Assembly: GCA_029582155.1 (NCBI GenBank)
Contig: CM055896.1
Location: 10,748,987-10,812,986, forward strand
Length of the DNA: 64,000 bases
Direction: 5' to 3'
DNA from: Panopea generosa
Taxonomy: Eukaryota > Mollusca > Bivalvia > Adapedonta > Hiatellidae
A program made the translations under genes and the position numbers. The notes beneath the pieces were generated by a model. That model had not been told where the DNA came from, did no database searches, and saw only the letters and a program-made list of their open reading frames with translations. This document shows, piece after piece, positions 10,540-14,884 of this stretch; within the stretch, counting starts at the first letter, position 1, and each line of letters begins with the position of its first letter.

Positions 10540-10759
10540 ATCATACGCAGGCTGTGCAGAATACTTTGATATACTTGCGTGCAGTCGCTGACCCGTTACA
10601 TAATTTTGCCGTTCATTTTTCACAATCATGGACGGGCATCTTTAGCTTTGGGCATAGATTTGGATACAATCTACCTTGTTCGAGATTTGCGATAGATTAT
10701 GTATTGATTAAAATGTCATACTAAGTAAGTAATTGTAACGGATGTGACGCCATAAAACA

Positions 10760-11251
10760 ATGAAAGAGTTGTTTATGTTTCTTGAGTTTATATTTACCAT
10801 CGCAGGTTTCTATTTCAAATTTACTTCTGTTTATTTTCAACAAAGTATTGTCAATCTCCAATGTGCTATGGTCTTCCTGTTATTAGTCTTGATGTCAGGA
10901 GATATTGAGACAAATCCCGGTCCCGACTTTACGGATACTACTAACACACTAGGTGCTATTTCAAATATCCATTTAGATATAAGGAGCATTATCCATAAAT
11001 TTGATTTTGTTTCCCAAAACTTTACTGATATTGACATAATGTGCTTTACTGAAACTCATCTTAACAACTTGGTAACTTCTGATGATTTAGTTATTGATAA
11101 CTTTGACGGATGTATCTACAGAAAATATTGTACTTCTCATTATGTTTCAAAGACAATTAAGTCGAAAAGACGTACGGATTTCGAAAGCACAGTAGTCCAT
11201 GCAATATGGGTAGAGATTTGTTACAAATCGTCTTCCTTTTCTACTGCGTAA
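10760..11251 (+). pseudogene. LINE ORF start: hydrophobic leader, 2A motif, truncated endonuclease
   Basis: A 163-residue frame. Residues 1-45 are strongly hydrophobic (MKELFMFLEFIFTIAGFYFK, then VFLLLVLM) and look like a signal or membrane sequence. Residues 46-55 are SGDIETNPGP, matching the 2A consensus D(V/I)ExNPGP; ribosomes skip the G54-P55 bond in proven 2A sequences. After it come endonuclease-like motifs: NIHLDIRSI, then FTETHL with the expected catalytic Glu, then VHAIWVEI, after which homology stops. 2A-like sequences are known at this position in non-LTR elements of sea urchins and molluscs, where some leaders act as signal peptides for dual targeting. Whether this copy's 2A is active is untested; the element as a whole is broken. 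Confidence 0.85.
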
Positions 11252-11379
11252 TATATATCGTATATTAATTAGCTGTAGGGCAAGATCTAGTAGGTCACAG
11301 AAATTTAAAACTAATTAAGGGTACAATTTTATATTCTTTATGTATTTTAAATAAGTCTATTCGTGAGAAATCTTTTCCA

Positions 11380-13061
11380 TGTAACTGGAAACACACACTT
11401 GTTATGCCCCTTTATAAGAAAGGCGATTCATCGTGTGTTAGTAATTACAGACCTATTTCCCTGTTAAGTTGTATTGGTAAACTTATGGAACGTTGTGTGT
11501 ATAAGTATATATATAATTACCTTATCTCTTATACATTCAGACAATCAGGTTTTTTAACTGGTCACTCCACTGTATACCAATTAATCGACATATACCACCA
11601 AATTTTAATTCAACTGACTCTAAACTTAACACTTGTATGGTCTTCTGTGGTATTTCTAAAGTATTTGGCCGTGTTTGGCACAAAGACCTTCTATTCAAAA
11701 TGCAACAATACGGTATAAATCGTAAAATCTTAAACTGGTTCAATAACTATCTTTCAAGTAGGAGCCAAAAGGTATTTGTCGGCACATCCTCTTCTCATAC
11801 AATGTCCATCAATGCTGGTGTACCACAGGGGTCTGTCCTGGGTCCATAACAATTTCTAATTTACGTAAATGACATAGCAGACAATTTATTAAGTCTTGCA
11901 CTTTTGTTTGCAGATGGCACTTCCTTAGCGAGCTGTGCTACAAATATATCAGATCTTGAAGGTAAAATAAATCACGATCTAATTATGTTATCTGCTTGGT
12001 CAAAACAGTTGTTAGTTACATTCAATCCCTTGAAAACTGAAGCAATATTATTCACATCTAAAAAAGTTCGTAATCTTCACTATTGTTTGAAAATATTCCT
12101 GTAACATTTGTTGAAAATCACAAACACCTGGGCCTTACAATCAGTAATTATGGTAAATGGCACGCTCATATTGAGAATATAATACAGTCTGCATCCAAAA
12201 TTCTTGGCATGATGAGAAAAGTTAAATTTAAAATACGTAGGGACGCTCTTAATCAAATTTATATATCATTTATTCGCCCAATTTTAGAATACACCTTGGT
12301 ATTGTGGGATAACTGTAACTGCTACGAGAAAGACAACTTAAAAAAGTCAACATGAAGCTGCCGGAATTATTACTGGCACAACAATATCAATATCCATTTC
12401 AAAATTATATAAAGAAATTGGCTGGTTATCTCTATCAGACAGAAGAAATTATCAAAAATTGATATTAGCATACAAAATAAAACATGGTATGACACCAAAC
12501 TACTTAATATATTTATTTCCCGATACATTTAGTAACAGAACAACATTCTATCTTAGAAACTCACAAGATCTTGATATCATAACCAGACGAACTGAGCTCT
12601 TTGCAAATTCTTTCATTCCATCAACAGTTTCGTTGTGGAATAAACTATCAGTTAGTTTAAGTGAAGCACCATCATTATCAATATATAAACGAAACCTTAT
12701 AAATACTTGTTTTCATCCAGTTTTAGTTCCAAAACACTTTAACCACGGTAAACGAATATTATCTGCACAGCATGCAAAACTTAGAAATAATTGTAGTAAC
12801 TTAAAGCATGATCTTTACGTTAATCATATAGAAAATTATCCAACATGTATCTGTACGCATGGAGTGGAAGATGCTGAACATTACTTTTGTAACTGATTTT
12901 TTTTACAACAAAGAATTGAATTATTTCAAAACACAAAGTTGTTCCATCCACTCAAGGTCAAAAAGCTGTTATATGGATCAGACGATCATTCATATGAAGA
13001 CAACATAAATCTCTTCGAAAGTGTTCAAACTTTCATACACGAATCCAGAAGATTCCAATAA
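11380..13061 (+). pseudogene. LINE reverse transcriptase and C-terminal region, broken
   Basis: Recognisable RT blocks in order: LVMPLYKKGDSS and NYRPISLLS (11404-11470), FRQSGFLTGHST (11537 on), VFGRVWHKDLL with the first catalytic region changed, INAGVPQGSVLGP (about 11810-11849), LLFADGTSLA (about 11897-11935), LLVTFNPLKTE, then ENHKHLGLTIS and a thumb-like region with RPILEYTLVLWD. The catalytic box reads FADG instead of the usual (F/Y)ADD, which should kill polymerase activity. The C-terminal part (12459-12896) ends in a CxC...HxxxxC-like cluster (CICTHGVEDAEHYFC) typical of the tail of this group, followed by an in-frame stop and about 50 more codons to TAA at 13059-13061. At least four frame changes or stops break it. 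Confidence 0.87.
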
Positions 13062-13289
13062 TTAATTTCGTTTCGAATTTTGTTTTTTCTCCTCTGACTC
13101 TGTAACAGCTACCACGTCATAACCGATCGCATTAATATCAGTGACCAACGAGGTAATACTTTATATACATATATGTGTGCGTGTGTATATTTTTTAATAA
13201 TTTAATATTTCATTTCATTTAAAAAAAAAATCAAAAAAATTTCAAATCATAAAATATTATGATTCCTGCTATTTAGTAAATATCCAACA

Positions 13290-13405
13290 TACATGCATAC
13301 GTGTGTGCGTGTATGTATGTTTGCATGTGAATGTCTGTGTATATATGTGTGTGCGGGCGTGTGTGAGTATGTGTGCGTTCGTGCGTGTATTCGTGTGTGT
13401 TTGCG
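13290..13405. repeat. GT-rich low-complexity stretch
   Basis: Irregular GTGTGTATG/GTGCGTG words inside the LINE 3' UTR. Confidence 0.8.
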
Positions 13406-13909
13406 TGATAACGCATGTATATTTTCTAACTAACTACACTTTATGTAATTCATATTGACTTGCCAGGAATGTAATATATCTTAACCGTCGTTAAAAATTG
13501 CAAAATATAGTTGAAAGGCAATGGGGCCGAATCTAATGTTGAGAGAACTTGTGGGCAGACCCTTTTGCCTTAAATTGTATTTGACTTACAATGTATATGT
13601 ATGATAAATATTGTAATATGTGTTTATTTGGCAATAAAATATGTTTAAACTAAAATAAAACAATGGACGATATGCATACAAGAGTTGTGCGTGATTTTTA
13701 ATGTTCTGTTCATCGACCTTAATTAAGGATGTAACACATATTTAGCTATGCATCGGTGCTTGGTAATTGCAAAAACATGGTGGTGTTAATTCAGGGCATT
13801 ATTTATATAAATAAAGAAATTAACTTTATTTGTCTTCTTATATCAACTTATATGTAACGAGTAAAGTTTACACGAACTTCTACAAATAACATTTATTCAT
13901 TAAATATGT

Positions 13910-14208
13910 CGGGTCCGATAAGCTCAGTCGGTTACGTGTCTGACTATTAATCCAGGGGTCGTGAATTTGAATCACCGCCCGGCAATAGTCTCCGTGATAA
14001 TTGATATACGACATTGTGTATCATTATTTTTCGTCTCTCACCGATGATGATTCAAGTGGGGAAAGTTATCAGCTAATTGCGAAAATGGGGTGTATTCGAA
14101 TACTGGTTAACCTTTCAGGTTCCCAGGAAACAGTGGTTTATTAACTGACCGTCTGTTAGCCATCGATGGCATAAAATGACGTTAAATATTCAATAAATCA
14201 ATCAATTA
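13910..14208 (+). mobile_element. SINE family 1, full copy
   Basis: Same head, body and AATC-rich tail as the copy at 1199, including gtctccgtgataattgatat, tcgtctctcaccg and ggcataaaatgacgttaaat. The tRNA-like arms have drifted. Confidence 0.8.
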
Positions 14209-14884
14209 GGTGTGTATTTTTTTCTAAATATCTTGTGCGTCTTCATGTATGTGTTCATTTTAGAGTTGCTAATTTTAACCATTAATGCTAAACATAAACA
14301 TCCTATATAATAATGTTACATGTGTAAACCATAGCGTTGTGAAAAGACATATGTCATAGATTCTGCTAAAACACCATATATGGTCAGTTAATGAGGTAAT
14401 TGATTATGCATGGACAAATTATACACATTTTAAGCACGTAACTCTCCTTGCGTTATACTTTCAGTATACAAATAGTTTGACACTCAATTATTGGCATTAT
14501 CGTGTTTGCCCATAACTTCAACTGACGTCATATTTGATCGTTGCTCAATGCTGCAGAACAATTGATAACTCAACCTGCTTATAAATTATACCAAATGTCA
14601 ATATTGGTTAACAAATTTCAGAAGTTCATGATATTTTAAATGCAAATATTTGTCTACAATAGTTACGTATATATCGCTTGTAAAATGTCAAATTATAGTT
14701 TTTTTCCAAATAAACAAACATTAAAGATAATTAACTGCACGCAGCACATTTGCATTTTATCCCGGCTTGGAGTTTAATATTTGATGTTTTTAAATTAGTG
14801 TTTACTATAATTTTAAAACAAATAAAAGTTTATAATGAATCATAGACGCGCTGCTTGTTAATAGTCTAAAAATAGTCTATCACA
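14209..14884. other. No gene seen
   Basis: AT-rich, no recognised feature. Confidence 0.55.

Follow-up and report, generated by a model that had tools for sequence, protein, structure and literature searches.

Is the 2A-like core that stands behind a short hydrophobic stretch in a decayed LINE of Panopea generosa a chance match, or does it come from an element in which StopGo has a job to do, and if so what becomes of the peptide in front of it? The core lies in what is here called the window, the whole 64,000-nucleotide stretch that was analysed, where the 55 codons of 10760–10924 (+ strand, as for all features below) end in SGDIETNPGP, residues 46–55, as a sequence-only reading of this DNA had said and translation confirms. 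The core itself, 10895–10924, is the one occurrence of [DGCN][VI]ExNPGP in the six frames of the window. To judge from the sequences compared, what the window holds is a dead single-ORF LINE copy, and in the intact members of its family StopGo likely frees an 86-residue leader from the endonuclease–reverse transcriptase (RT), a reading in which we have good confidence.

A truncated copy and its intact relatives

The window element is a dead, 5′-truncated copy of a LINE. An 11-bp sequence, ATAAAACAATG, is present in the window only at 10752–10762 and, as an exact repeat, at 13655–13665, and the two flank a LINE copy (10761–13655, by blastn of the fetched copies against the window) that is both 5′-truncated and internally deleted and is ~90–94% identical to other copies over the longest aligned piece (blastn; 9 of the 39 copies listed). 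All 39 of the other scored copies begin with the second or the fourth base of the query, that is at 10761 or 10763; upstream of 10761 none of the 9 listed copies (39 were aligned) matches the window, which reads ATGAAAGAG where the intact copy L012 reads TTGAAAGAG. The 11-bp target-site duplication and the truncation at 10761 are hallmarks of LINE insertion, here of an ordinary 5′-truncated one, and so the ATG at 10760–10762 is target-site DNA, the end of the duplication, and is ruled out as the element's start. It was there that the sequence-only reading had begun the leader; the ATG-started leader of 45 residues is only apparent, a product of the truncation and the duplicated target site, the intact leader having 86 residues and a conserved polar N-terminal box. 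The true start of the leader is 32 codons upstream, at the box MGNDxxxWRVAIGxF, and the Met of the window corresponds to leader residue 33.

What survives in the window is the 3′ part of the leader (10761–10894, residues 34–77 of the intact family, the N-terminal box having been lost by truncation), the core, as identified by translation and comparison with other copies, and what is left of the N-terminal part of the AP-type endonuclease domain (10925–11261), recognised by homology to the L012 frame. At the junction of an internal deletion (11261–11263, by blastn) ~1005 bp are missing, L012 1518 to 2523, and beyond it a decayed remnant of linker, reverse transcriptase and C-terminal region runs from 11263 to 13061 (blastn; the end was placed by eye), with 6 stops in 11403–11849. 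The AP-endonuclease-like domain that had been proposed to follow the motif is present as this homologous remnant, and is not there as a whole domain, given the ~1005 bp deleted and the lack of any Pfam domain match in 10760–11158; nor does the decayed window copy itself encode a single polypeptide that has both an AP-like endonuclease and an RT. Just 3′ of the LINE, 13911–14209 has by eye the tRNA-like head and AT-rich tail of a tRNA-like SINE. Farther on, 31422–31514 matches the 3′ end of the LINE family at ~80%, and is a short 3′ fragment or an element that shares its tail.

What does an undecayed member look like? From 111 candidates 40 were scored, and the 39 copies besides the window were fetched. 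Eight of the 39 have an uninterrupted frame of 1149–1183 codons, and in seven of these the whole 86-residue leader is present, the eighth, L018, having it only from residue 12, being truncated, with a frame that enters other DNA upstream. The intact order is 86-residue leader, GDVETNPG/P, endonuclease and reverse transcriptase. The L012 frame begins MGNDINSWRVAIGMF and continues through leader, GDVETNPGP, Exo_endo_phos (2e-06) and RVT_1 (1.9e-32; both Pfam), so that one polypeptide has both the AP-like endonuclease and the RT, as in an APE-type non-LTR retrotransposon; six PDB matches of the RT are to R2-type and other reverse transcriptases. In 29 of the 39 other copies the core is GDVETNPGP, and in 10 there is a substitution, stop or indel: GDVETNSGP (3), GDIESNPSP (2), GGVETNPGP, GDVKTNPGP, GDVETNRGP, a stop and a 1-base deletion. 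The earlier proposal of a LINE that bears 2A/StopGo is borne out by L012 and its relatives, related copies sharing both leader and core. The family seems to have been active recently, since L012 and L028 share 99.4% identity along 4.9 kb. A ~98-codon 5′ frame of several copies, considered as a conserved upstream ORF1, was rejected because it begins within a simple-sequence (GAT)n array. In L012 such an array (positions 1–185) lies ~0.7 kb 5′ of the ORF start, and several other copies match it.

One leader before different proteins

A search of the genome with an 88-residue leader+2A query (150 scored of 661 candidates) extends the leader beyond the window family. Among the matches listed, diverged families match leader+2A nearly full length at 37–49% identity, and at least 11 of their copies have a 1150-codon frame. 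The 20 leaders picked by their match to this query give no independent count of the box. A set of 20 motif sites of different spelling, taken from 100 listed genome sites, has it in frame at nine (L048, L051, L052, L054, L056, L057, L061, there without its Met, L062 and L065); the other 11 have no readable in-frame box, being decayed, truncated, PHD-type or DVERNPGP repeat, or having another leader. For 13 loci with an in-frame box, chosen from the fetched leaders and the motif sites together with L012 and L090, M1, R9, G13 and F15 are present in all 13 and D4 in 12, and the leaders including 2A are 53–89 residues long. The box can be written M-x-x-D-[ILV]-x-x-[WYH]-R-x-x-[IV]-G-x-F. A profile of seven long-leader families recovers the box in six further families at exactly the same N-terminal offset, with 1–3 of 20,000 shuffles as good per further family, in a test that is post hoc, as the families were chosen because the box had already been seen. 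In L012, L065, L062 and L054 the Met of the box is preceded, 2–5 codons upstream, by in-frame stops. This box, with a putative StopGo core, heads several diverged LINE families.

The cores themselves vary. NVELNPGP, with N at p12, is present in four of five fetched copies of a sister family (L074, L075, L077 and L078; L076 has NVELKPGP), and L090 (1–174; one copy read) has CVEQNPGP, with C at p12. The latter core escapes searches for D(V/I)ExNPGP. The leader of a relative, L083, ends in DIAENPGP, which is outside the expanded StopGo core set of PMC12846837 and counts against release by StopGo. A scan of IMG/VR with one leader gave eight pattern stretches and no relative.

What follows box and core is not always the same protein: some frames bear an endonuclease, and at least one of the families read encodes an ORF1 protein of LINE-1 type and then, in a separate frame, an endonuclease. 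The short leader of L051 and its relatives continues, by eye, into endonuclease-like sequence; among the matches listed for a short-leader query (150 scored of 2144 candidates) at least 24 copies have a 1121-codon frame and at least 3 one of 1123, lengths which suggest a single endonuclease–RT frame. Some short-leader matches, e.g., G000:C9:28977135, align only from NPGP on (residues 50–162), a pattern that replacement of the leader would give. In L062 and L054 the leader precedes a coiled-coil protein. That of L062 has a coiled coil and an RRM and is a homologue of LINE-1 ORF1p (PDB 2ykp, 3e-06; Pfam Transposase_22 0.0068, below gathering score), and an endonuclease frame (3.2e-08) comes after the ORF1 stop codon, while the partial frame of L054 gives sub-threshold coiled-coil matches only, and the protein of L090, which has no Pfam match, resembles that of L062 by eye. 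ORF1-type relatives (131 matches; 150 scored of 603 candidates) include, among those listed, at least 5 copies with a 367-codon frame (98–100% identity), at least 9 with one of 370 and, for the L090 family, at least 10 with one of 476. In L060 and L058 2A stands before a PHD-like finger (PHD 0.0026 in L060, below cut-off) and the leader is a different one.

Is it the peptide that is being kept? Between families A and B identity is 69% in the box, 38% in the rest of the leader, 60% in the last 15 residues before 2A, 89% in 2A, 52% in the endonuclease (EN) and 66.5% in the RT, and the fast divergence of the middle leader residues counts against a conserved leader. For A and B leader+2A has pS 0.62 and pN 0.35 (box 0.44 and 0.18; 2A 0.44 and 0.10; EN 0.78 and 0.33; RT 0.78 and 0.24), and three other between-family pairs have pS 0.64–0.78 and pN 0.31–0.37, synonymous sites between families being near saturation and the pS/pN ratios rough. 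Within families, five pairs have pS of 0.00–0.14 and pN of 0.02–0.10, close to each other, with more non-synonymous change in B/B2, which is expected of dead copies and lends no support to selection. The preponderance of synonymous change that the sequence-only reading had looked for is thus found between families and not within them. Among same-residue pairs of degenerate codons in the 13 chosen loci, 339 have a different codon and 194 an identical one, and the box arginines are encoded by CGT, CGC, CGA, AGA or AGG; because codons differ while residues are kept, selection acts on the protein.

Release of the leader and the alternatives

From the motif and its upstream context we infer that StopGo is probably active here. 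In PMC12846837, Leu-rich LLLLSG-like StopGo contexts with G at p11 and Asp at p12 are described for viruses, the p12=N and p12=C core variants, tested as RNA-virus variants, have over 95% activity, and cellular genes are said to use StopGo only rarely; compared by eye with its contexts, the LLLVLMSG that precedes D[VI]ETNPGP fits the Leu-rich (A/S/C)G type. StopGo would block formation of the Gly–Pro bond while the leader is still inside the ribosomal exit tunnel, the leader would be freed as a separate peptide, and translation would go on, with the downstream endonuclease–RT beginning with Pro. With protein-level selection keeping its N-terminal box, the leader would be more than a spacer, and it is probably a separately released product needed by several LINE families. 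As to function and location, we infer that the leader may be a small accessory product from the first ORF and that it probably associates with membranes. A wider proposal is offered tentatively, as one that falls somewhat short of probable: the leader would be a third LINE protein, its module of box, hydrophobic stretch and StopGo heading the first ORF whether that encodes endonuclease–RT or L1-type ORF1p; the accessory peptide, associated with membranes, would be released at ~1:1, and LINE lineages would have retained the module or traded it among themselves.

Could the motif be instead a chance match in a decayed repeat? This is scarcely conceivable. In the genome searched (1.474 Gb, 39 contigs) a degenerate DNA pattern that encodes G-D-[VIM]-E-x-N-P-G-P has 791 sites and the reversed control none, where base composition leads one to expect ~5e-7 in the window and 0.01 in the genome. 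The 791 are inflated by repeats, DVERNPGP and close variants being 45 of 100 listed sites, and on account of this abundant repeat the notion that all 791 are 2A elements was dropped; since two in-frame stops just precede its motif in the three of three copies sampled (L050, L091 and L092), it is not counted as functional 2A, and it does look like chance or relic. However, GDVETNPGP recurs in the window family as given above, the intact frames run through the core, by which chance is refuted for that family, and families at 37–49% leader identity share the core. It is also quite improbable that the box is kept mainly as DNA or RNA, e.g., as an internal promoter like Pr77 of L1Tc, with the leader peptide a by-product. 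Third-position conservation is higher in the box (0.58, counting Met and Trp) than in 2A (0.35; six families), an excess that leaves room for an overlapping nucleic-acid function, and trypanosome L1Tc has internal promoters at its 5′ end (PMC4748587). Yet the same residues are found at fixed positions from different codons, including both CGN and AGR arginines, and Rfam at gathering score finds no family, and no HDV-like 5′ ribozyme, in L012, L018, L048, L051 or L054.

Membrane or dual targeting of the leader is plausible as a prediction, and in its full form has the leader as signal peptide or anchor, such that failure of StopGo sends fused endonuclease–RT or ORF1p to the secretory pathway or membrane and success leaves it cytosolic. 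There is a precedent in SpNLR2A6 of a sea-urchin NLR (PMC4981915), net charge is positive in all 13 leaders, the best 19-residue Kyte–Doolittle window in the seven long-leader families is 1.26–2.05 for the first segment and 1.47–2.19 next to 2A, and the N-terminus of the PHD-type L060 is by eye signal-peptide-like. Dual targeting of this kind is nevertheless rather unlikely to be what the leader is for. The hydrophobic run adjoining 2A is accounted for by StopGo context alone and, because it is part of the known Leu-rich context, is by itself no evidence of secretion; in the short leaders of L051, L052 and L056 the pre-2A windows are only 0.83–1.43. One further hydrophobic segment is present in the seven long leaders (in the six others none stands out before the pre-2A stretch), and their best first window starts 22–37 residues in, behind the conserved polar box. 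A late hydrophobic window behind a polar box is unusual in a cleavable signal peptide, and a secreted endonuclease–RT would seem to be without clear use.

Relation to known systems

With release of the leader by StopGo as the preferred reading, how does it stand beside what is known? The 2013 work of Odon et al. reportedly describes 2A-like sequences in APE-type non-LTR retrotransposons of the clades Rex1, Crack, L2, L2A, CR1 and Ingi, the core reportedly being in frame in LINEs which often have a single ORF. The likeness is the in-frame 2A-like core in LINEs, and what may set the present elements apart is a conserved N-terminal box common to endonuclease-first elements and an L1-type-ORF1p element. 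In L1Tc/ingi of trypanosomes, the subject of work by Heras et al. in 2006, 2A is reportedly in frame with the element's proteins, as it is here. Pr77, together with an HDV-like ribozyme, lies at the 5′ end of L1Tc, whereas the five loci here gave no Rfam match.

The 2A signal sequences of SpNLR (PMC4981915) resemble the present ones in having a hydrophobic leader at the N-terminus that closes with D(V/I)ExNPGP, whereas theirs are of 26 residues and belong to host immune genes, and those here are of 53–89 residues including 2A and belong to LINEs. ORF1 is modular in CR1/L2 lineages, where single-ORF, PHD and Transposase_22 (L1-type) first ORFs occur (PMC4120745, of which the main text, as far as available, has no mention of '2A-like' or '2A sequence'); here leader and StopGo precede such ORFs. 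No description of the leader box was found in the open-licence literature searched, which does not show it to be unpublished, and the sole match of five box peptides in literature text was a calcium-channel study. In one genome, then, several LINE families have the peptide 5′ of StopGo itself conserved before different downstream proteins, and this shared leader makes a concrete question testable, namely what the job of the released leader is. Natural NVELNPGP (p12=N) and CVEQNPGP (p12=C) in cellular elements extend the RNA-virus variant set of PMC12846837. 2A in LINEs is known; what is added here is a leader box common to several families, the finding that this box can stand ahead of ORF1p, and LINE cores with N or C at p12.
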